A stretch of 64,000 nt of DNA from Simplicispira suum (GTDB lineage: Bacteria > Pseudomonadota > Gammaproteobacteria > Burkholderiales > Burkholderiaceae_C), in the NCBI RefSeq assembly GCF_003008595.1, contig NZ_CP027669.1, positions 434,001-498,000 of the forward strand, in the 5' to 3' direction. Positions 4,341 through 61,226 of this stretch are shown here, piece by piece. The position numbers and the translations under genes were made by a program. The notes below the pieces were generated by a model. The model had not been told where the DNA came from and ran no database searches. It saw nothing but the letters and a program-made list of their open reading frames with translations. Within the stretch, counting starts at the first letter, position 1, and each line of letters begins with the position of its first letter.

Positions 4341-5420
4341 TTAGAGCTTCTGGCGCTGCATGAAGTTGTCGAAGGTGCCTTCTGCAAAGCGGAACCACAG
4401 CACTTGGTCGCGCTGGAAGTTCACGTAATCGGCGTGGATTTTCTTCCAGTCCGGGTTCTTGGCATCCAGTTCGGCAAACACTTCCTGCGACGCCTTGAAG
4501 GACGCATCCATGACCGACTGCGGGAATGGGAGTACCTTGGTCTTTGCGCCCACCAGTTGCTTGAGCGCGCCTGGGTTGCGAGAGTCGTAGCGCGCCTGCG
4601 TGGTGACGTGCGCTTCGTGAGAGGCGGCCTTGATGATGGCCTTGTTCTCGGCCGAGAGCCCGTTGAAAGCCTTGTCGTTGACGTAGAAAGAGAGATTCAG
4701 GCTCCCTTCCCACCAGCCGGGATAGTAGTAGAAGGGCGCCACCTTGTTGATGCCCAGCTTCTGGTCGTCGTAGGGGCCAATCCACTCCGCCGCGTCGATC
4801 GTGCCCTTTTCCAGTGCTTGGTAAATTTCGCCGCCGGGAATGTTCTGCGGTACACCACCCATGCGCTCGATGACCTTGCCGGCAAAACCGCCGACACGGA
4901 ATTTCAGGCCCTTGATGTCGTCGGGCGACTTGATTTCCTTGCGGAACCAGCCACCCATCTGGGCGCCAGTGTTGCCACCGATGAAATCGATGATGTTGTA
5001 CTGCGCGTAAAACTCACGCATGAGCTTCTGGCCGTTGCCGTCCACCATCCAGGCCGTGAGCTGGCGCGAGTTCATGCCGAAGGGAATGGCGCCACCGATG
5101 GCGAAGGCCTCGTTCTTGCCAAAGAAATAGTAAGGCGCTGTGTGCGCCATCTCGACGGTGCCGTTCTGCACACCATCGACCACGCCGAACGCGGGCATCA
5201 GCTCGCCGGCGGCGTGCACCGAGACTTCAAACTTGCCGCCAGACATGTCCTTGACGGCTTTGGAAAATACTTCTGCGGATCCGAAGATGGTGTCAAGCGA
5301 TTTGGGAAAGCTCGACGCCAGGCGCCAACGCACTGCTGCCTGCGCATGCACTGCCGGTGCGACACCTGCCGCGAGCACCCCGGCGATGCCGGCATTTTTG
5401 ATAAGGGAACGACGATCCAT
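4341..5420 (-). CDS. TRAP transporter substrate-binding protein, TakP-like (copy 1)
   Basis: 359 aa. The N-terminus MDRRSLIKNAGIAG is a twin-arginine signal followed by a hydrophobic stretch and a VHAQ cleavage region. So it is exported folded to the periplasm, where it would deliver an organic acid to DctQM. TakP-family hallmarks are present: the FPKSLDTIFG opening, GGWFRKEI with its ligand-contacting Arg, and EWIGPYDD. TakP binds 2-oxo acids such as pyruvate; the ligand here is inferred. The start is fixed by an AGGAGA ribosome site 6 bp upstream. It has its own terminator and another sits between it and copy 2, so it is probably transcribed alone. A close paralogue follows at 5574. Confidence 0.9.
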   Translation of the reverse strand: MDRRSLIKNAGIAGVLAAGVAPAVHAQAAVRWRLASSFPKSLDTIFGSAEVFSKAVKDMSGGKFEVSVHAAGELMPAFGVVDGVQNGTVEMAHTAPYYFFGKNEAFAIGGAIPFGMNSRQLTAWMVDGNGQKLMREFYAQYNIIDFIGGNTGAQMGGWFRKEIKSPDDIKGLKFRVGGFAGKVIERMGGVPQNIPGGEIYQALEKGTIDAAEWIGPYDDQKLGINKVAPFYYYPGWWEGSLNLSFYVNDKAFNGLSAENKAIIKAASHEAHVTTQARYDSRNPGALKQLVGAKTKVLPFPQSVMDASFKASQEVFAELDAKNPDWKKIHADYVNFQRDQVLWFRFAEGTFDNFMQRQKL

Positions 5421-5469
5421 TGCTAGTCTCCTGTGATGAAAAAAGGTGCTGGCGGTGCTGCTGCGATGC

Positions 5470-5520
5470 CAAAAAAAAGCCGGCGTCAGGCCCGCACAGC
5501 TGCGGGCCCGAGACTCCGGC
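5470..5520 (-). terminator. Long-stem terminator between the two binding-protein genes
   Basis: On the minus strand a GCCGCCGGAGTC...GGCCTGACGCCGGC hairpin, containing an inner GGGCCCGCA/TGCGGGCC stem, is followed by T8. It ends transcription of copy 2 before the start of copy 1. Confidence 0.75.
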
Positions 5521-5573
5521 GGCTTGGAGCGATCAATGCAGTCATGGCCTGATCGCGACAAGAACTATGCTGG

Positions 5574-6656
5574 CTACAGCTTGACCGAAGTCATGTAGCT
5601 GTCGTAACGGAATTCCGAGAAACGGCCCCACAGGATCTGGTCGCGCTGGAACGCACGCATATCCTGGTGGATTTTCTTGAACTCGGGCGACTTGGCTTCG
5701 TGCTCGGCAAACACTTCCATCGAAGCCTTGAAGCCGGCATCCATGAGCTCTTTGGAAAACGCCTTGAGCTGGGTCTTGGCGCCGACGAGCTTTTTCAATG
5801 CAATGGGATTGAAGGCGTCGTACTTGGCGGTCATGTCGCGGGCGGCAACCGCCGTGGCGGCATCGACCATGGCCTGGAATTCGGGTGTCAGGGCCGCGTA
5901 GGCCTTGGCGTTGATGAAGAATTCCAGCTCGGCGCCACCTTCCCACCAGCCGGGGTAGTAGTAGTACGGGGCCACCTTGTTGAAGCCCAGCTTTTCGTCG
6001 TCATAGGGGCCGACGAATTCACAAGCGTCCAAGGTGCCTTTTTCCAGTGCCTGGTAGACCTCGCCTGCAGGCATGTTTTGCGACACAACACCGAGCTTTT
6101 GCATGGCTTCGCCGAACAGGCCTCCGCCCATACGCATCTTCAGACCTTTGAGGTCTTCAACGGTGTTGATCTCCTTGCGGTACCAGCCACCCATCTGCGT
6201 GCCGGTGTTGCCTGCGCTGCGGCTCTTGATGTTGTATTCGGCGTAGAACGCATCCATGAGCTTGCGGCCGTTGCCGTGCTCCATCCACGCGTCCATCTGG
6301 CGTGCGGTCAGACCAAAAGGCACGGCGCAGCCAAAAGCAAAAATGGAGTTCTTGCCAGTGAAGTAATACGGCGCGGTCTGCGCCATTTCCACTGTGCTGT
6401 TTTGAATGGCGTCGACCACACCAAAGGGAGGCATCAGCTCGCCAGCTGCGTGCACCGAGCATTCAAACTTGCCACCCGACAAGGCCTTGAGTGTTTTGGA
6501 AAATGTTTCGCCACTGCCAAAAATGGTGTCGAGCGACTTGGGAAAGCTCGAGGCCATGCGCCAGCGAACAGCCGTCTGGGCGTGCACGGCAGGAGCAACC
6601 CCTGCGGCCAGTACGCCGGCAATGCCGGCATGTTTGATGAGTGAACGACGATCCAT
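5574..6656 (-). CDS. TRAP transporter substrate-binding protein, TakP-like (copy 2)
   Basis: 360 aa. Its signal peptide is almost identical to copy 1 (MDRRSLIKHAGIAG, twin-arginine type), while the mature part has diverged (GGWYRKEI, EFVGPYDD, CAVPFGL). Periplasmic ligand-binding component of a TRAP system, probably for an organic or 2-oxo acid. The near-identical export signals with a diverged binding region point to a tandem duplication followed by change of ligand preference. The membrane subunits convergent with it are the only permease genes in the window. A strong terminator follows, so it is probably monocistronic. Confidence 0.9.
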   Translation of the reverse strand: MDRRSLIKHAGIAGVLAAGVAPAVHAQTAVRWRMASSFPKSLDTIFGSGETFSKTLKALSGGKFECSVHAAGELMPPFGVVDAIQNSTVEMAQTAPYYFTGKNSIFAFGCAVPFGLTARQMDAWMEHGNGRKLMDAFYAEYNIKSRSAGNTGTQMGGWYRKEINTVEDLKGLKMRMGGGLFGEAMQKLGVVSQNMPAGEVYQALEKGTLDACEFVGPYDDEKLGFNKVAPYYYYPGWWEGGAELEFFINAKAYAALTPEFQAMVDAATAVAARDMTAKYDAFNPIALKKLVGAKTQLKAFSKELMDAGFKASMEVFAEHEAKSPEFKKIHQDMRAFQRDQILWGRFSEFRYDSYMTSVKL

Positions 6657-8793: not shown

Positions 8794-8802
8794 TCAATAC
8801 TA

Positions 8803-8856
8803 TATATTTAATAGCTTATAGCGCTTATCCAATAAGCGCTGGAGGCCATTTTTACT
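8803..8856 (+). repeat. Palindromic repeat, copy R1 (core 8813-8847)
   Basis: 35-bp core AGCT-TAT-AGCGCTT-7 nt-AAGCGCT-GG-AGGCC, with an AT-rich arm on each side. The inner arms AGCGCTT/AAGCGCT form a 7-bp hairpin. It fills the ispA-dxs gap with its AGGCC/AAATT end touching the ispA stop codon. Confidence 0.85.
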
Positions 8857-8857
8857 T

Positions 8858-9811
8858 CTAATTTGAGCGCAGCAGCACCATGTCTGCCAGCGCCGCGAGC
8901 CGTTCGGTATTGCGCAGGCCGGAGGCGGCCAAGCCAGCCAGCGCTTCGCCGTGGAGATTCTGCGCGCACTGCCGTGCAGCCTCGATCCCGAGCAAAGAAA
9001 CGTAGGTGGGCTTGGAATGAAAAGCGTCCTTGCCAGCGGTCTTGCCCAGTGTGGCGGAATCTTGCGTCACATCCAGAATATCGTCCACCACCTGGAAAGC
9101 CAGCCCCAGCGCGTTGCCGTAGCAGGCCAGCCCGGCAAGCGCCGCTGCCCCAGGTGTGCCACAGGCGGCGCCCATCATGACGCTGGCGCGCAGAAGCACT
9201 CCTGTCTTGAGCTGGTGCATGTGGCGCAGCTGCGCTTCGTCCAATTGTTCGCCGACGCTGGCCAGGTCAATCGCCTGCCCGCCCGCCATGCCTGCGGCGC
9301 CAGCGGCGCGTGCCAGCAGCCGGCACAGCTGGGCCTGCACTGCGACGGGAATGTCGCTGCGTTCCGGCGTGAGCAGCTCGAAGGCCAATGCCTGCAAAGC
9401 GTCACCCGCCAGCAAGGCGCCGGCCTCGCCAAACTGCACATGAACCGTGGGTTTGCCACGGCGCAGCACGTCGTTGTCCATGCAGGGCATGTCGTCGTGA
9501 ACCAGGGAATAGGCGTGGATCAGTTCCACGGCGCACGCGGCGCGCAAAGCCGCTTCGTCCAGCGCGGCACGCAAAGCCGCTTCGTCGCGTGCGGCATCGA
9601 CGCCGGAGTGGCCCTCCCCCGCCACGGCCTCGCGCGCCGCCAGCACCAGCAGCGGGCGCAGGCGTTTGCCCCCGCCCTGCACGGCGTAGCGCATGGCCTG
9701 GCCCAGGTCGGAGGGCGCGCCTACGCCGACCCAATCCGAGAGCGCGGCCTCGGTGCGGGCAAGCTGCGCGGCGCTCCAGTCGGTCAGCGCTTGTCCAGGC
9801 ATGCCGCTCAT
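8858..9811 (-). CDS. ispA: (2E,6E)-farnesyl diphosphate synthase (polyprenyl synthetase family)
   Basis: 317 aa, cytoplasmic. It makes geranyl and farnesyl diphosphate from IPP and DMAPP. The first aspartate-rich motif DDMPCMDND (about residue 105) and the second, VVDDILD (about 235), are intact, as are GGGKRLRP and KTAGKD. The ATG at 9811 overlaps the xseB stop as ATGA, which indicates translational coupling. Just before the first motif the sequence DEAALRAAL is doubled: a 27-bp tandem duplication at about 9544-9597 adds nine residues to a loop of the usual protein. The stop codon lies at the edge of palindromic repeat R1. Confidence 0.95.
9544..9597. repeat. 27-bp tandem duplication inside ispA
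   Basis: Two in-phase 27-bp units sharing GCAAAGCCGCTTCGTC and differing at about four positions. They encode DEAALRAAL followed by a near-copy, immediately ahead of the conserved [10 protein letters not shown] helix. Confidence 0.7.
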
Positions 9812-11406: not shown

Positions 11407-11445
11407 GCGGCTTGGCCGCTTAGGCGAACGGACCCAGTTTGCTCA

Positions 11446-11490
11446 TTTTTAAATAGCTATCAACGCCCGTTGAATAGGCGCTGAAACAAT
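11446..11490 (+). repeat. Palindromic repeat, divergent copy R2
   Basis: AATAGCTATCAACGCCCGTTGAATAGGCGCTG keeps the AGCT start, the 7-nt-loop hairpin layout (GCCCGTT...AGGCGCT partly paired) and the AT-rich left arm, but has lost AGGCC. It lies between the Rieske and EamA genes. Confidence 0.5.
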
Positions 11491-11513
11491 ACTTCACCTA
11501 TATATTTGGCACC

Positions 11514-19232: not shown

Positions 19233-20063
19233 TTAGAAAGCGCCTGGGTAGGCCCCGCCATCGGCCAGCAGGTTCTGCCCATTGATGTAGCCGGCATGCA
19301 CGCTGCACAGAAAGGCACAGATGGCACCAAACTCGCCCGCTTCGCCAAAGCGACCGGCGGGAATGCTGGCACGCTGGGCCTGGCGGACGTCTTCCAGCGT
19401 CTTGCCACTGCGCGCTGCAGTGCCGGCAAAGGTGGCCGCCAGGCGGTCGGTATTGAACTTGCCCGGCAGCAGATTGTTGATGGTGACCCCGCGCCCGGCC
19501 ACTGCGCTGCGCGCCGCACCGGCGACAAAACCCGTCAGCCCGCTGCGCGCCCCATTCGACAAGCCCAGGATATCGATGGGCGCCTTGACCGCGCTCGACG
19601 TGATGTTGACGATGCGGCCAAAGCCGCGCGCCGCCATGCCATCGACGGTGGCGCGAATCAGGGCGATAGGCGTCAGCATGTTGGCGTCCAGCGCGGCGAT
19701 CCATGCGTCCCGGTCCCAATCGCGAAAGTCGCCGGGCGGTGGACCACCGGCGTTGGTCACGACCATATCGAAATCGTGCCCCGGCCCGCCGGGCACCGAA
19801 AAAGCCGCCTCGCGCCCGGCTTCGGTGGTGATGTCTGCAGCCACGGTCAGCACCCGGATTTTTGGCCGATTTAGGCCTCTAGCGCTTGCTGCTCCATCGT
19901 TTACAGCTATCAGTTCAGAAGCAGCTGCAGCCAGAGCGGCTTCACCGCGTGCGTTGATGACCAGGTTCACGCCCTCGCGCGCCAGAGCCTGCGCGCAACC
20001 CAGCCCCAGCCCCTTGCTGGCACCGCATACCAACGCCCATTTGCCCGCAATACCCAAATCCAT
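19233..20063 (-). CDS. SDR-family oxidoreductase lacking the YxxxK motif, with an in-frame repeat insertion
   Basis: 276 aa Rossmann-fold protein. The cofactor motif is CGASKGLGLG near residue 13, NAGG near 105 and NITSSAVK near 150. Where classical SDRs have YxxxK this one reads LSNGARSG, so the catalytic Tyr and Lys are absent. A subgroup of FabG-like SDRs shares this pattern, so it may be a genuine family with altered chemistry. Residues about 66-80 (VNDGAASARGLNRPK) are encoded by a copy of the dispersed palindromic repeat and extend the loop before TVAADIT. The start MDLGIAGKWALV fits the family. The ligand is unknown. Confidence 0.82.
   Translation of the reverse strand: MDLGIAGKWALVCGASKGLGLGCAQALAREGVNLVINARGEAALAAAASELIAVNDGAASARGLNRPKIRVLTVAADITTEAGREAAFSVPGGPGHDFDMVVTNAGGPPPGDFRDWDRDAWIAALDANMLTPIALIRATVDGMAARGFGRIVNITSSAVKAPIDILGLSNGARSGLTGFVAGAARSAVAGRGVTINNLLPGKFNTDRLAATFAGTAARSGKTLEDVRQAQRASIPAGRFGEAGEFGAICAFLCSVHAGYINGQNLLADGGAYPGAF
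19860..19915 (-). repeat. Palindromic repeat, copy R3, inside the SDR gene (core 19874-19908)
   Basis: On the minus strand AGCTGTA...AAGCGCTAGAGGCC, exactly 35 bp, flanked by TGAT on one side and an AT-rich arm on the other. The first hairpin arm is mutated. It is read in-frame by the SDR gene and adds about 15-18 residues. Unlike most copies it runs in the same direction as its gene. Confidence 0.8.
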
Positions 20064-21797: not shown

Positions 21798-22757
21798 TCA
21801 GCGGCGCCCGGCGGGCGCGGCGCGCGCCGGGCCCGAGGCGCGCGAAAACACAAAAATTCCCGCAATCACCAGGGCAGAGCCCAGCGCCACACCCGCAGTG
21901 AACGGCTCACCCAGCAGCCAGACGCCCATCAGAATGGTAGCCATCGGCCCGACCATGCCGGCTTGGGAGGCCGCGCTGGCACCGATGCGCTCAATGGCCA
22001 TCATCACCATCAACACCGGCACGGCGGTGCACAGGGTGGCGTTGAGCACCGAGAGCCAGATCACTTCGGGCGCCACCAGCGCCGCGCTCCAGGGCCGCAG
22101 CAAGGCAAACTGGAGCAGGCACAGCACACAGGCCACGGAAGTGGCCAGGCCCACCAGACGCAGCGAACCCAGGCGCTGGACCATCTCGCCGCTGTAGACC
22201 AGATACGCGGCGTAGCTCGCGGCGCTGCCCAGCACCAGCAGCGCGCCCCAGGCGGCGTCCGGGCCTTGGTGCAGGGCCTCCTGACCAAAGACCAGCGCCA
22301 CGCCGCAATAGCTCACCAGCATGCCGAGCATCTGGCCGCGCCGAACGCCCCGGCCATACACGGCCCAGCCCAGCAACAGCACCAGCGTCGGGCTGAGGTA
22401 CTGAATCAGGCGCTCCAGGCTCGCCGTGATGTAGGCCAAGCCGGCGAAGTCGAGAAAACTTGCCAGGTAGTAGCCCGAAAACCCCAGGCCGAGCACCCCC
22501 AACCAGTCGCTGCGGGTCAGCGCTGCCTTGCCCCGGCTGGCCCACCACGCCATGGCGGCAAACAGAGGCAGAGCAAACAGCATGCGGTACATGATGAGCG
22601 TGACCGCATCGACGCCGTAGCGATACGCCAGCTTGACGATGATCGCCTTGCCACTGAAGGCCACCGCGCCCAGCAGCGCCAAGCTGAGGCCAATTGCTCT
22701 GTTTTTTGTAGCTGCTTGCGCAGCATCATCAAGCGCTGGAGGCACTTTTTTATTCAA
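21798..22757 (-). CDS. EamA/DMT-family transporter with repeat-derived N-terminus
   Basis: 319 aa with ten predicted helices in two EamA halves and the usual ILVYRMLF-like segment (LIMYRMLFALPLF). The conserved part begins near residue 19 (NRAIGLSLALLGAVAFSGKA). The residues before it are encoded by palindromic repeat R4. No ATG is available there: the frame opens with TTG at 22757, overlapping the thioesterase stop, or GTG at 22745. Translation is therefore probably coupled to the thioesterase. An inner-membrane exporter of unknown substrate. Confidence 0.85.
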   Translation of the reverse strand: MNKKVPPALDDAAQAATKNRAIGLSLALLGAVAFSGKAIIVKLAYRYGVDAVTLIMYRMLFALPLFAAMAWWASRGKAALTRSDWLGVLGLGFSGYYLASFLDFAGLAYITASLERLIQYLSPTLVLLLGWAVYGRGVRRGQMLGMLVSYCGVALVFGQEALHQGPDAAWGALLVLGSAASYAAYLVYSGEMVQRLGSLRLVGLATSVACVLCLLQFALLRPWSAALVAPEVIWLSVLNATLCTAVPVLMVMMAIERIGASAASQAGMVGPMATILMGVWLLGEPFTAGVALGSALVIAGIFVFSRASGPARAAPAGRR

Positions 22758-22765
22758 TTTTTCAA
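22695..22765 (+). repeat. Palindromic repeat, copy R4 (core 22710-22744)
   Basis: 35-bp core AGCTGCT...AAGCGCTGGAGGCA followed by the AT-rich arm with AATTTTT. It spans the junction of the thioesterase stop and the EamA start, coding for the last residues of one and the first residues of the other. Confidence 0.85.
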
Positions 22766-28963: not shown

Positions 28964-29524
28964 TCAGATCAGGTCATAAGCAGCAAAGACAGCGTGCCAG
29001 GCCGCGCATTTGCGCTCAAAGCTCCAGGCGGCATGGGCCGGGCTGGTGGAAGGAAGGCGGTGGCTGGCAATCGGCGGGGCCTTGCCGCCCGCAAGCGCCA
29101 CTTGCACCGCCGGCGCATGCCGCGCACTCTCGCCGCCATTGTGGGCGATGGCCGCCAGGTGCGGGCACTGCGCCGTGATGCTGGAAAAATCGTTGCGCTC
29201 ACCGTGGCGGATGGCGGCGTCGAGACTGCCGCTGCGCTCGCAGGCGGCGTACACATCCCACAAACCCAGGCCGTGCGCCAGCAGCCAGGCGCAGCGCCCG
29301 ACATAGTCGTGCGCGCCGGGCTGCGGGTGCTGGGGCCACAGGGCAGCCAGCAGCGGCCAGAACTGGTTGCGCGGGTAGGCGTAGTACTGCCGGGCGCGCA
29401 GCGACGCGGCGCTGGGGAAGCTGCCCAGCACCAGGAGCACGGTGTTTGGCCCCACCACCGGAGCCAGTCCGGTGTGTACCGCAGGCAGCGCGTAGGGGGG
29501 AAAATTTTTTGCTACAACATTCAT
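28964..29524 (-). CDS. DNA-deoxyinosine glycosylase (uracil-DNA glycosylase superfamily)
   Basis: 186 aa. Motif LVLGSFPSAASLRARQYYAYPRNQFWPLL and the later LPSTSPAHA are the hallmark of the family-6 hypoxanthine/deoxyinosine glycosylases, which excise deaminated adenine from DNA. The His in SPAHA and Asn in PRNQFW are in place. The ATG is 1 bp beyond the core of palindromic repeat R5, and the first residues MNVVAK derive from the repeat's arm. The real conserved start of the protein is near residue 18 (LAPVVGPNT). Confidence 0.87.
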   Translation of the reverse strand: MNVVAKNFPPYALPAVHTGLAPVVGPNTVLLVLGSFPSAASLRARQYYAYPRNQFWPLLAALWPQHPQPGAHDYVGRCAWLLAHGLGLWDVYAACERSGSLDAAIRHGERNDFSSITAQCPHLAAIAHNGGESARHAPAVQVALAGGKAPPIASHRLPSTSPAHAAWSFERKCAAWHAVFAAYDLI

Positions 29525-29580
29525 AGCTTATTGCGCTTTATTCATAAGCGTTACAGGCCATTTTTTATCAAATTTTCGAG
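29510..29580 (+). repeat. Palindromic repeat, copy R5 (core 29525-29559)
   Basis: 35-bp core AGCTTATTGCGCTT...AAGCGTTACAGGCC; the left arm TTGCTACAACATTCAT codes on the minus strand for the glycosylase N-terminus, and the right arm with AAATTTT codes for the last residues of TatD. It bridges two genes with almost no free DNA left. Confidence 0.88.
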
Positions 29581-31942: not shown

Positions 31943-32650
31943 TCAAGCTGGGACGCCTGCGCCTTGCACCAGCCGCCCCGCCACCAGGCGCAGCACCCGG
32001 TCGCAGCGCGCGGCCAGGGTTTCGTCGTGCGTCACCATGACAAAGGCGGTGCCCTGCTCACGCGCCAGTTGCAGCATGTGCTGAAACACGCCTTCTGCCG
32101 TGCTGCGGTCGAGGTTGCCGGTGGGCTCGTCGGCCAGCACGCAGGCGGGCTTGGTGACCAGCGCGCGCGCAATTGCCACGCGCTGGCGCTCGCCGCCTGA
32201 GAGCTCGGCCGGGCGGTGCTGCACGCGCTCACGCAAACCCACCTGGGCCAGCATTTGCGCCGCCTGGTGCGTGCATTCCGCGTAGGGCAGGCGGCGGATG
32301 CGCAGCGGCATGGCGACGTTGTCGAGTGCGCTGAACTCGGGCAGCAGGTGGTGGAACTGGTAGACAAAGCCCAGGTGCTGGTTGCGCAATAGCCCCTGCT
32401 CAGCCGCGGAGCGCTGCGCCAGGTTCTGGCCCAGCAGTTGCACGCTGCCCGACGTGGGCGCATCGAGCGCGCCCATCAGGTGCAAGAGCGTGCTCTTGCC
32501 CGAGCCCGAGGCGCCAACGATGGCCAGGGTCTCGCCGGCATGCACGTCCAGATCAACACCTTGCAGCACGGTGACGTCCAGCCGTCCCTCGGTGAACCGC
32601 TTGGTCAGGCCGCGCACCTGCAAAACAACGTCATTTTTCACGGCACTCAT
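31943..32650 (-). CDS. lolD: Lipoprotein-releasing ABC transporter ATPase LolD
   Basis: 235 aa. ABC ATPase: Walker [13 protein letters not shown], signature [13 protein letters not shown], Walker [14 protein letters not shown]-loop VMVTHD. The LolD motif [27 protein letters not shown] is clear. With LolC/E it extracts outer-membrane lipoproteins from the inner membrane for LolA. The start [12 protein letters not shown] is chosen because the upstream open frame runs through a GC-rich repeat with no family support. Confidence 0.95.
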
Positions 32651-32683
32651 CTCAGTTATCCATAGCATGACAGTGGCGCTCGC

Positions 32684-32870
32684 CAGGCCAGGGCAGCCGC
32701 GCAAGGGCCGCCCCGCCGCGCTGGCTGCGTCCCCCTGCCCGCATTGGGCAGCAATGCGAGAGCGGGGGCTGAGGGCTGCGGCTCCAGACCTGCCTGCGCA
32801 GGCCTGGACGTGCCCGAAGGGTTGCCGCTTCTGGCGGCTGCGCCGAGACGGGCAGCGTCTCAGGGGGGTG
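32684..32870 (-). repeat. GC-rich dispersed repeat B, copy 1
   Basis: On the minus strand it begins AACACCCCCCTGAGACGC right after the lolC/E stop. It contains ATGCGGGCAGGGGGACGC and GGCGGCCCTTGCGCGG. These blocks, in the same order and orientation, recur at 41187-41327. The middle of the element differs between the copies. It fills the 225-bp gap between lolC/E and lolD. Confidence 0.65.
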
Positions 32871-34164: not shown

Positions 34165-35121
34165 ATGTCGGACACTACCCATTTGCTGGTGCCCTGGGCG
34201 GCCACCAGCTCCCCTGGCAGCGACCAGGCCTGGCAAGGCCTGGCGCTGCCGCAGCTCGAACGCCTGATCAGGCAACTCACCCCGCTGGCTCCCGATGTTC
34301 AGGAAGAAGCGTGCTTCTCACCCCCGCACGAGCGCGCGCTCGGCCGCGCGCTGGGCCTGGGCGACGCGGATGGCCGCATTGCCTTCGCCGCGCTGCACGC
34401 CGCACAGACCGGCCTGGCCAGTGCCGCCAAACCAGGTGACGGCTGGGCCTTTGTGACGCCCTGCCACTGGCAGGTGCGCACCGACCACGTCACGCTCTCG
34501 GACCCCCAAGCCCTGGACTTGGGCGAAGAAGAGTCGCGCGCACTGCTGGCGCTGATGGCGCCCTGGTTCGCCGAGGACGGCATGGCCCTGCACTACGAAC
34601 AGCCGGGGCGCTGGCTGGCGAGTGGCCCGCTGCTGGCCCAGGTGGCGACCGCCTCGCTCGACCGCGTGCTGCAGCGCGACGTCCGCGCCTGGCTGCCGCC
34701 GGAGGCCGCCGCCGCACCCCTGCGCCGCCTGCACAGCGAAATGCAGATGCTGCTCTACACCCACGCGCTGACCGACGCCCGCGAGGCACGCGGCCTGGCG
34801 CCCATCAACGCCTTCTGGGTGCATGGCTCGGGCGCCCTGCCCGCACCGCTGCCGGCCAGCCAGCCGCCGCAAGTGGTGGAGTCGCTGCGCGGCCCCGCCC
34901 TGCGCGAGGACTGGGCCACCTGGCGCAGCGCCTGGCAGGCGCTGGACGCCGGCCCCGTGGCAGAGCTGGCAGCGCGCGCCGCAAAGGGCCAGCCGGTGCA
35001 GATCACGCTCTGCGGCGAGCGCGGCGCGCTCTCGTGGCGCAGCGCGCCGCGCAGCCTGGCGCAGAAAATTTCAAGCTTTTTTGGCCGCCAGCGCTTATCC
35101 CAATTGCGCGAGCAGCTATGA
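34165..35121 (+). CDS. RpfE-like conserved protein upstream of recJ
   Basis: 318 aa, no signal peptide or membrane helix. I recognise it as the protein usually found next to recJ, annotated RpfE-type or, loosely, 2,3-bisphosphoglycerate-independent phosphoglycerate mutase-like. Conserved-looking blocks are RLIRQLTPLAPDVQEEACFSPPHERALGRALGL, GWAFVTPCHWQVRTDHVTLSDP, and LHSEMQMLLYTH...INAFWVHGSG. Biochemical function is unknown. Its last residues (GRQRLSQLREQL) and the 4-bp overlap with recJ come from palindromic repeat R6. Confidence 0.75.
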   Translation: MSDTTHLLVPWAATSSPGSDQAWQGLALPQLERLIRQLTPLAPDVQEEACFSPPHERALGRALGLGDADGRIAFAALHAAQTGLASAAKPGDGWAFVTPCHWQVRTDHVTLSDPQALDLGEEESRALLALMAPWFAEDGMALHYEQPGRWLASGPLLAQVATASLDRVLQRDVRAWLPPEAAAAPLRRLHSEMQMLLYTHALTDAREARGLAPINAFWVHGSGALPAPLPASQPPQVVESLRGPALREDWATWRSAWQALDAGPVAELAARAAKGQPVQITLCGERGALSWRSAPRSLAQKISSFFGRQRLSQLREQL

Positions 35122-35137
35122 ACATTGTAGCAAGGCA
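35065..35137 (-). repeat. Palindromic repeat, copy R6 (core 35083-35117)
   Basis: 35-bp core on the minus strand AGCTGCT...AAGCGCTGGCGGCC. Its left arm CTTGCTACAATGTTCAT (minus strand) codes on + for the RecJ N-terminus, and the ATG of recJ follows the core directly. The other arm is read as the C-terminus of the RpfE-like protein. Confidence 0.85.
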
Positions 35138-39709: not shown

Positions 39710-40345
39710 ATGGCCCTGTATTTCGAAGTCCACCCCGACAACCCGCAACCCCGTTTGATCCAACAGGCCGCCACGCTGCTCAAGCAAGGCGGCGTGCTGG
39801 CCGTGCCCACCGATTCGAGCTATGCCCTGGTCTGCCAATTGGACGACAAGGCGGCTGTGGACCGCCTGCGCCGCATTCGCGGTGTCGACGACAAGCACCA
39901 CCTGACGCTGCTGTGCCGCGACCTCTCGGAGCTGTCCAGCTACGCGCGCGTGGACAACCGCCAGTACCGGCTGCTCAAACTCGCCACACCCGGCGCCTAC
40001 ACCTTCATCCTCGACGCCACCAAGGAAGTGCCGCGCCGCGTGAGCCACCCGAGCCGCAAGACGATTGGTCTGCGCGTGCCCGAGGGCGCCGCGCTGCAGG
40101 CGCTGCTGGAACTGCACGGTGGACCGCTGCTGGGCACGACGCTCATCCCGCCCGGCGAGACCGAGTCCATGAACGACGCGGAGGAAATTCTGGAGCGCTT
40201 TGACAAGCTGATCGACGGCGTGATCGATGCCGGTGCCTGCCCGTCGCAGCCCACCACGGTGCTGGACCTGACGCCCATGGAAAAAGGCGGCGACCCCCAC
40301 GTGGTGCGCGAGGGGCGAGGCGATCTGGCAGCGCTTGGGCTCTAA
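39710..40345 (+). CDS. L-threonylcarbamoyladenylate synthase (YciO/TsaC family)
   Basis: 211 aa. The KQGGVLAVPTDSSYALVCQL nucleotide-binding region, KHHLTLLCRDLSELSSYA, PGAYTFILDATKEVPRR and TIGLRVPEG are the Sua5/YciO/YrdC hallmarks. TsaC makes the threonylcarbamoyl-AMP used for tRNA t6A37; YciO has a related but distinct activity. The sequence resembles the YciO branch more, so the t6A role is uncertain. The TAA stop lies in the AT arm of repeat R7. Confidence 0.88.
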   Translation: MALYFEVHPDNPQPRLIQQAATLLKQGGVLAVPTDSSYALVCQLDDKAAVDRLRRIRGVDDKHHLTLLCRDLSELSSYARVDNRQYRLLKLATPGAYTFILDATKEVPRRVSHPSRKTIGLRVPEGAALQALLELHGGPLLGTTLIPPGETESMNDAEEILERFDKLIDGVIDAGACPSQPTTVLDLTPMEKGGDPHVVREGRGDLAALGL

Positions 40346-40416
40346 AATTTTGTACCAAATTGGCCTCCAGCGCTTGCTGGTAAAGCGGTGTCAGCTATTT
40401 ATTGGATAGCATGATA
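40343..40416 (-). repeat. Palindromic repeat, copy R7 (core 40362-40396)
   Basis: 35-bp core; on + it reads GGCCTCCAGCGCTTGCTGG and then AAGCGGTGTCAGCT, with the arm TAAAATTTTG overlapping the stop codon of the YciO/TsaC gene. Confidence 0.85.
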
Positions 40417-42701: not shown

Positions 42702-42720
42702 ACCAGCAGCCGGCTTGAGA

Positions 42721-42790
42721 AGCTATATTTTTGATAGCTTACAAAGCTTACCGAATAAGCGCTAGACGGTCAAATAAGTCAAAATTCAGT
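42721..42790 (+). repeat. Palindromic repeat, copy R8 (core 42736-42770)
   Basis: 35-bp core AGCTTAC...AAGCGCTAGACGGT with arms ATATTTTTGAT and TCAAAATTC. The right arm overlaps the stop codon of the FecR-TPR gene on the minus strand. Confidence 0.8.
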
Positions 42791-51171: not shown

Positions 51172-51688
51172 GATCGAATCCTCCGTTTCCGCAATTATGT
51201 ATCTCGATTGCGATACAGTCAAGTAACCGCTGGCGATGCTCTGGCGGCATTCGATGCCTGACCGGCGGCCATGGTTGACAACGAACCTGCGTGCGTAAGT
51301 TGTTGATTTTGCTGAACAGCCATCTGCACCTACCCGCAGGCCAAACGGAGAACAGAGACGGCTCTGGCCAAGAAAGTGGCCGATTTCGGGCGTTTCGGCT
51401 GATGGCCACCCGCAGCACAGGCGGGCAGAACCCCGCGTGGTGCGGGGATTTCAGGCAAGAAAAAGGGCCCGGAGATTGTCCGAGCGCTGGCGTCTACTGA
51501 ATGAACGCTGCAAGTGATTGATTTTCAATGAATTTTCCAATGCAGTTTTGAGATTTGTTCCCCGATTTGTTCCCCGGTGCCGGTCGTGATACCCCGATTT
51601 CTGGGGCCAATCTGTGCCCTCAAAATCTGCTCATCCTGCGTTGCATATTTTCTACTCTCTGTTGCATTTTGCCGATTCTGTGTCCCGA
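51172..51688. other. Gene-free interval with integrase-type repeats
   Basis: About 500 bp between the antitoxin promoter side and the next minus-strand gene. Short open frames here lack ribosome sites and protein-like composition. At 51554-51576 lies a pair of TTTGTTCCCCG units; the rest shows nothing I can name. Confidence 0.55.
51554..51576. repeat. Paired TTTGTTCCCCG motif, left copy
   Basis: Two TTTGTTCCCCG units 12 bp apart. The same 23-bp arrangement occurs at 60702-60724 with one mismatch. It may be an integrase arm site or an att-flanking sequence. Confidence 0.65.
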
Positions 51689-59293: not shown

Positions 59294-59393
59294 CGCGCTC
59301 CCTGTCTCTCACGCCCCAAAAAGAAGCCAGCGCCGCCGGGTCAGGGTGTCCCGGTTGTTCCCCGTCGGGTAAGGCGTGGCGTCAAACTGTTGT

Positions 59394-60838: not shown

Positions 60839-61226
60839 TGGTGGAGCTGGCGGGAATTGAACCCGCGTCCGCAAGCCTTTACCGGGCAGATCTACATGTT
60901 TAGCGGTCTGATTTAAGTCTCGCCACCGGTATCGCGCAGTCGCACGCTATACCGGCCGCCAGTACCCTATTGTCTCGTCCCAACCCAAGGTACCCGGATC
61001 AGAACCAGCCCATGTAATTATCCTTGCAGCCGGGAGGCACCGATTGCTCGATACCCCCTTGCCCAGCCCATCGGCCAACTGTTGCAAGGCTCACTGGCAA
61101 TTAAGCAGCGAGTGCGAAACGTTCGTCGTTTGCAGTTAGTTTTTTTGAATGCAGATTTACGAGCGCCAATCAAGCTCGACATGCACCACGCCGATTCCGA
61201 ACCCACGTCGAAACCAGGGCAGCCCC
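60839..61226 (-). ncRNA. ssrA: tmRNA (transfer-messenger RNA)
   Basis: 388 nt with CCA encoded. The 5' end GGGGCUG pairs with CAGCUCC ahead of ACCA at the 3' end, making the acceptor stem; the T-arm reads GCGGGTTCAATTCCCGC. The 5' part GGTTTCGACGTGGG is the conserved tmRNA opening. The tag frame on the minus strand (61133-61101) codes ANDERFALAA then TAA, the betaproteobacterial tag. It rescues stalled ribosomes with SmpB. The 3' half is the integration site of the island; the tRNA-like part remains complete. ssrA lies head to tail 8 bp after gph. Confidence 0.97.

Follow-up and report, generated by a model that had tools for sequence, protein, structure and literature searches.

The closest described systems to the sequence studied here are the uptake sequences DUS of the Neisseriaceae and USS of the Pasteurellaceae, and the repeats that are read in frame within genes. 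DUS are described as part of the core genome, as absent from acquired genes and as having a spacing that matches conversion fragments; many recent DUS are reported to have arisen by recombination rather than by point mutation, which bears on the analogy drawn below (PMC2397512). Of DUS and USS, 35–65% are located in reading frames, their spacing is significantly even, and an origin in pre-existing sequence has been described for them; the report also states that uptake sequences are less evenly distributed than compaction sites would be, a further point that bears on the analogy (PMC1939737). Rickettsia palindromic elements (RPEs) are described as insertions of ~150 bp (PMC10969869). In-frame intragenic repeats as such are already known, since REP sequences have been reported in this arrangement in other bacteria (PMC3733652). 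An initial annotation of a gene for an SDR-family oxidoreductase of Simplicispira suum (genome G000) interpreted a segment of the gene as a repeat inserted in the manner of RPEs. The repeat is real and the SDR frame reads through it: the core of the copy fits the family pattern exactly, copies of the whole family occur elsewhere, and the frame is open across the element. The more interesting fact is, however, a chromosome-wide DNA motif written through genes rather than an insertion. The segment is possibly, at a little less than an even chance, one copy of a 71-bp DNA recognition site that is maintained throughout the chromosomes of Acidovorax-like Comamonadaceae in the way of an uptake sequence. 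The features of the window, which is the whole stretch of 64,000 nucleotides that was analysed, are listed in Table 1.

Table 1 Positions of the SDR gene and of the copies of the 71-nt element in the window.
Feature	Position	Strand	Score (bits)	Description	Site in relatives
SDR-family oxidoreductase gene	19233..20063	-		276 aa; host of an element copy; identified from ORF, Pfam, solved relatives and AlphaFold2	
Element copy within the SDR gene	19856..19926	-	53	71 nt; codes SDR residues 46–70, AAASELIAVNDGAASARGLNRPKIR	
Core of the SDR copy	19875..19909	-		35 nt, TAGCTG...AAGCGCTAGAGGC; exact fit to family core pattern	
Element copy	8795..8865	+	96	Intergenic	Occupied in G017
Element copy	11437..11507	+	45		Occupied in G017
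Element copy	22692..22762	+	70	Just upstream of or across the predicted start of an EamA transporter gene	
Element copy	29507..29577	+	72	3' edge of called gene	Occupied in G017, G007, G004, G029, G035; not in G028
Element copy	35065..35135	-	64	Over C-terminal codons of a 318-aa gene	Occupied in G017, G018, G007, G004, G029, G035, G028
Element copy	40344..40414	-	77		Occupied in G017, G018, G007; none found at G029 site
Element copy	42718..42788	+	66	Last ahead of an element-free stretch	Occupied in G017, G018

The core of the family is described by the pattern TAGCTGN17AGCGCTRGAGGC, which has 72 exact matches in the 4.15-Mb genome and none in a backwards control. With up to two mismatches there are 349 matches (180 forward and 169 reverse), compared to a single match in the control (0 and 1 by strand). 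A 14-nt piece of the core with one mismatch allowed is found five times in the window, where 0.12 matches are expected. When 149 copies differing from the pattern at no more than two positions were aligned, conservation was seen to span ~71 nt, comprising 17 nt ahead of the core, the core itself and the 19 nt that follow. A position matrix was derived from 114 intergenic copies, and sequences scoring above 15 bits were counted as copies. The matrix identifies 246 copies in positions 1–1,658,000 (1.66 Mb) of the chromosome and none in the reversed sequence, so that, as for DUS and USS, the motif is over-represented on both strands. The scores are bimodal, and the 71-nt motif contains 65.5 bits. 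Scaled from the 1.66 Mb, the complete chromosome would carry ~580 copies.

The cores of 49 of the 246 copies lie inside called genes, and 47 copies are positioned wholly inside; these counts are approximate, because gene boundaries were taken from our own simple caller (coding fraction 0.82). Two mostly open frames account for 33 of the 47 coding copies. Within positions 1–1,658,000 of contig C1, the host genes include those that we take, from their sequences, to be IleS, ornithine carbamoyltransferase (OTC), PriA, RecC, PepN, AceE and a UvrD-type helicase, and presumably also a RarA-like and an RsmB-like gene. Intergenic copies are distributed among convergent (53), co-directional (129) and divergent (15) regions, of which 95, 503 and 160, respectively, are at least 71 nt long.

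The product of the SDR gene contains the Pfam domains adh_short and adh_short_C2, and the nearest relatives of known structure are 5idx, 5vps and 5va8. In the AlphaFold2 model, the segment coded by the element forms the end of a helix (residues 41–61) and the loop that precedes a strand (residues 71–75), which agrees with the placement between two Rossmann elements in the initial annotation. The loop is longer than in the solved relatives, as had been proposed; however, the addition is nearer to 12 residues, the size of the gap at this position in the alignments with 5idx and 5vps, than to the 15–18 residues first given. The core had also been described as a hairpin with one mutated arm. Its left half indeed departs from the consensus of the family; however, covariation between the two halves, as expected of a hairpin, is not observed. 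Four stems were tried for the family, and their pairing was within 0.06 of expectation without covariation; an RNA or hairpin function was therefore rejected. The strongest couplings within the element are those of neighbouring AA/TT steps and not of base pairs. The single-strand fold of the SDR copy is no better than those of shuffled sequences (z 0.08), so that a palindrome kept as a hairpin, as in RPEs, was not found. Only tmRNA and int-alpA reach the Rfam gathering score in the window, and no Rfam family does so at the element.

The SDR orthologues were collected in 116 rows, which are not independent, because several represent the same genome fetched twice or near relatives. The loop has 31–33 residues in 31 of the 38 rows with a positive element score and 25 residues in the other seven, and it has 20–28 residues in 69 of the 78 rows without element-like DNA. 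Orthologues L052 and L169 have loops of 33 residues without element DNA, and their genomes contain three pattern matches each. The SDR gene of G028 is 18 nt shorter at the position of the element, which is absent. In a tree of 110 SDR proteins calculated with the loop excluded and drawn with a midpoint root, the long loop together with the element falls within one group of 33 rows, the support of which (85/92) is not strong; rows without the long loop and element are scattered inside this group. The SDR genes of Rhodoferax, Polaromonas and Curvibacter carry, at the same codon, the element's left half together with a shorter loop. Four genomes of this type contain 90–234 copies of the left-half pattern (control 0–1), and their version of the right half was not observed. 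The extended surface loop accompanies the element in the SDR, and it is shorter again in some relatives that do not have the motif.

It could be argued that the loop is conserved for the SDR protein itself and that its DNA resembles the family incidentally, since the loop is present in the best 120 listed database homologues. This explanation is highly improbable, because it is already contradicted by re-encoding and by comparison of copy numbers. For each of 36 SDR orthologues, 200 synonymous re-encodings were generated from the codon use of the gene with a G000 prior. Real DNA of 20 of the 21 long-loop orthologues scores better than all 200 re-encodings (real score 11 to 72; z 5.0–9.1); the single exception is L052, the DNA of which is not element-like. 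The initial annotation had considered that all orthologues might share the loop without repeat-like DNA, whereas these 20 retain such DNA. Third-position GC content is 0.24–0.48 in the element segment and 0.72–0.93 elsewhere in the SDR orthologues. The SDR copy retains the rare codons ATA and AGA, which constitute 2.0% of Ile codons and 0.6% of Arg codons in G000, respectively, and which fit the DNA motif. This is the opposite of the codon-level adaptation that had been suggested for the segment.

The state of the SDR DNA agrees with the abundance of the element in the rest of the genome. In the SDR group, all 11 genomes that have 147 or more pattern matches carry element DNA (score above 0) in this gene, whereas none of the eight with 65 or fewer does, and the Spearman correlation with copy number is 0.89 for the 19 genomes with both values. 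The score of the SDR gene of A. delafieldii is barely positive (3 bits). Genomes without the family have no element-like DNA in the SDR gene, although the loop may remain, as in L052 and L169. Conserved positions of the element change slowly. In the 29 pairs shared with G017, the identity at high-information positions is 0.898 for intergenic and 0.950 for coding copies, compared to 0.821 in the intergenic flanks and to 0.618 (intergenic) and 0.743 (coding) at low-information positions. The corresponding values for the 12 pairs shared with G007 are 0.866 and 0.844 at high-information positions, 0.810 in the intergenic flanks, and 0.667 and 0.636 at low-information positions.

The positions of the copies are conserved among relatives. 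The flanks of each copy were aligned to the related genomes, and a site was counted only if both flanks could be aligned. Seen from G000, all 48 sites comparable in three congeners are occupied (G017 30/30, out of 34 elements in the region that G017 covers; G007 13/13; G018 5/5). The congener G004 has five of five sites occupied, and the further relatives G029 and G035 have six of seven, one of them in the opposite orientation, and seven of eight, respectively. In G028, a genome with fewer copies, three of ten sites are occupied. In the reverse direction, 45 of the 48 sites of the three congeners are occupied in G000 (G017 29/30, G018 5/6, G007 11/12), as are those of G004 (6/7), G029 (5/7), G035 (7/8) and G028 (3/3). 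The element is of fixed length, and the 71-nt matrix, which allows no gaps, fits each of the 30 pairs with G017. Of 14 loci of the same genus, G000 counted, 13 have the copy at the EamA gene at an identical base offset, with G019 as the exception. This copy is found at none of three more distant loci, and the sole match at the L249 locus is the neighbouring SDR copy. The start codon of the longest EamA frame lies within the copy at 22692–22762, and the caller starts the gene downstream, so that the true start is unsure.

Sites unoccupied in G000 include that of a weak 18-bit copy of G017, one site each in comparison with G029 and with G035, and a site near chromosome position 466631 that is unoccupied as seen from four genomes (G018, G007, G004 and G029). 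At the last of these, ~250 nt of other GC-rich intergenic DNA (window ~32640–32870) is present instead of the element. Pieces of this filler match elsewhere in the relatives, and it may be a second repeat family. No clean 71-nt empty site was found among the unoccupied sites inspected in the congener comparisons.

The length of host genes could be compared with an element-lacking relative in six cases: four genes are equal in length, one is longer without the element, and the SDR gene is shorter. The proteins of genes 683250, 690888, 695110 and 701796, the last of which we take to be IleS, align with those of G028 across the element without an indel. The 621-residue product of the gene at 569452 has an element-less counterpart in G035 that is ~7 residues longer around the site. 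Gene 567784, in which G035 has the element, has indels in the same region, and length thus varies in some hosts. The motif therefore lies, in four of the six genes, inside sequence that relatives hold without it at equal length, as is the case for DUS and USS.

These comparisons bear on the possibility that the family is an old mobile element of the MITE, REP or RPE type, copies of which once entered the SDR gene and further genes in frame and have remained inactive from then on. The occurrence of a repeat family in both orientations, the SDR loop ~12 residues longer than in solved relatives, the 33 of 47 coding copies in two mostly open frames, and the precedent of in-frame intragenic REPs elsewhere (PMC3733652) are consistent with such an origin. 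So is a weak match of 11.5 bits located ~0.3 kb beyond the domain of the only Y1 transposase (Y1_Tnp) gene of the genome; however, copies above 15 bits occur only ~6 kb off on either side of this gene. Furthermore, no clean empty site is found in congeners, homologues that lack the element are equal or longer in five of the six genes, conserved positions change slowly and the SDR DNA is kept, and the copies are evenly spaced. A MITE would insert as a complete element and duplicate its target; no such insertion was found in these comparisons, given the equal-length homologues and the lack of a clean empty site. In-frame insertion with empty sites in relatives, as in RPEs, was likewise not found, and only the SDR loop is compatible with it. 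The four genes of equal length already indicate gains that are neutral in length. A mobile origin of the family is therefore unlikely. Copies appear to be gained and lost mostly in ways that do not involve insertion of a complete unit, and the RPE-like selfish insertion that had been put forward does not hold as a general mechanism: insertion is possible for the SDR loop alone and fails for the element family.

The element occurs at a density of ~1 copy per 6.7 kb, and it recurs every few thousand nucleotides along the chromosome in many relatives of Acidovorax. Copies are spaced more evenly than at random: the coefficient of variation (CV) of the spacing is 0.71, compared to 0.99±0.06 for uniform and 1.24±0.08 for intergenic placement, and only 3.7% of the spacings are shorter than 1 kb, compared to 14% and 27%, respectively. 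Intragenic copies have a median distance of 5279 nt from intergenic copies, whereas that of random coding positions is 2405 nt (P 4e-8). The examined 148 of the 237 kb of contigs C2 and C3 contain no copies, and ~22 would be expected at the density of the chromosome. The element thus shares with DUS and USS a location in the core chromosome, even spacing and rarity in acquired DNA. The window is free of the element from 42789 to 64000 (chromosome gap 476717–500267, 61.5% GC). This stretch, which is possibly an integrated island, includes a tmRNA gene (60839–61226, minus strand), an int-alpA RNA (59314–59380) and a direct repeat of 37 nt (identity 84%) at 51548 and 60696. Elsewhere in the window, positions 4359–6526 contain two adjacent paralogous stretches, which are 72–79% identical in blocks and 1233–1236 nt apart.

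The main rival to an uptake sequence is a site for chromosome organisation or for a nucleoid protein, which would be selected for regular placement, with coding copies tolerated where no intergenic slot is near. Even spacing with few close neighbours, the distance of intragenic copies from intergenic ones, the absence from 148 kb of other contigs, the fixed length, the coupling of AA/TT neighbour steps rather than base pairing, and the fact that convergent intergenic regions are the most used are all consistent with this role. However, its reader is only putative, and helical phasing of AT was rejected, because the 10-bp power is below the 95% level of permutations. The test for gap filling by intragenic copies based on the CV is not significant (P 0.10), the congeners G005 and G002 manage nearly without the element (three and four matches, respectively), and even spacing with core restriction is equally expected from uptake drive. 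A role in chromosome organisation is therefore conceivable but rather doubtful.

Among 150 genomes of the family, 24, including G000, have at least 40 pattern matches, and most others are near the control. Ottowia GY511, which is outside the SDR group, has 213 matches and an SDR gene without the element, and Verminephrobacter aporrectodeae has no pattern matches. Variant cores were observed in Acidovorax Leaf191 (the L168 genome; AAGCGGTAGAGGC), G068 (CGCGTTTCCAGGC), G163 (GGGCTNGAGGC) and G080 (GGCTANAGGC), and there are hints that they, such as AAGCGGTAGAGGC in Acidovorax Leaf191, are dialects of the element. The competence protein ComEC was considered as a tracker of the element and rejected, because it fails to separate element-rich from element-poor genomes: it is present in 24 of 24 high-copy and 23 of 24 low-copy genomes, and in a second comparison in seven of eight element-poor and five of six element-rich genomes. 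G028, with ComEC in three frames, and G216, with no ComEC match, fit such tracking; by contrast, A. delafieldii has 168 matches and no ComEC match. The ComEC domain of G028 is split among three different frames (C1 1836740–1837544), which may reflect a disrupted gene or an error in the assembly.

The combination of fixed length, even spacing, site retention and restriction to the core chromosome suggests that a putative sequence-specific DNA-binding reader acts on the element. Copies are located at conserved orthologous sites, mainly intergenic and otherwise in stretches of coding sequence that tolerate them, where they would dictate codons and hence amino acids. The most likely reading of the element is a self-DNA uptake or recognition sequence comparable to DUS and USS, which would have been spread and kept by biased uptake together with recombination, a form of molecular drive. 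Uptake is slightly favoured over chromosome organisation because DUS and USS show the same combination of properties, and because competence has been reported in Acidovorax and in Verminephrobacter eiseniae. A. temperans, A. facilis and Verminephrobacter eiseniae are described as naturally competent, and the DNA uptake of V. eiseniae is called sequence-specific in the same report (PMC4212676). A. temperans was reported not to be transformed by other Acidovorax DNA, and no transformants are given there for A. delafieldii and A. defluvii (PMC4212676).

Several observations count against uptake. At 71 nt and 65 bits, the motif greatly exceeds the known uptake sequences in length, copy number is not reflected in the presence of ComEC, V. 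aporrectodeae has no matches although its relative V. eiseniae is reportedly selective, and the species barrier within Acidovorax is not explained by a genus-wide motif. Against a maintained recognition site more generally, the SDR element comes with an extension of the loop, and Ottowia GY511 has 213 matches and an SDR gene without one. A bolder form of the proposal, held only tentatively, is that the Acidovorax, Comamonas and Rhodoferax group recognises its own DNA by the 71-bp element. As an uptake-type signal, the element would be far larger than those known, and it would be strong enough to rewrite loops of essential enzymes and would be lost genome-wide in some cases, the loops then shrinking back or ameliorating.

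If the recognition-site reading were correct, a DNA-level signal would be shaping the proteome in a third, unrelated lineage, here by means of an unusually long motif. One group includes genomes that have the element and others that do not (for example G005, G217 and Verminephrobacter), and relatives are reportedly competent in the laboratory; tests can therefore be designed to distinguish between selfish drive, self-recognition and chromosome architecture. The results also give a warning that what looks like an in-frame repeat insertion in a single genome may be a site overlaid on sequence that was already there.

Among the papers listed by searches of the open-licence PMC literature, none was seen to describe the 71-nt element. 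The Betaproteobacterial repeat element BRE also occurs in Comamonadaceae including Acidovorax, with some copies in coding sequence; judging by its description, it would differ from the element in having a length of ~90 bp and at most 29 copies, with four in A. avenae subsp. citrulli (PMC3110155). REP/BIME and the GTAG/CGTC palindromic repeats that are associated with RAYTs resemble the element in having many copies, a preference for convergent intergenic regions and some genic copies, as described in PMC3733652. Unlike them, the element has no covarying hairpin and no transposase gene flanked by strong copies, and its positions are common to several genera. With RPEs the element shares that the DNA of a repeat family is read in frame inside unrelated genes; however, its sites are conserved and mostly involve no change in length. 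The motif is not a short core like DUS and USS, which have 9–12 nt (~30 nt with AT tracts), but extends over 71 nt with ~65 bits; its density is one per 6.7 kb rather than about one per 1 kb, and its occurrence is not tracked by the presence of ComEC. Nevertheless, the element resembles DUS and USS in that it occurs hundreds of times, on either strand and within as well as between genes, prefers the core chromosome, is fairly evenly spaced and lies in sequence that relatives hold without the motif. It has the look of a recognition tag rather than of a jumping element.
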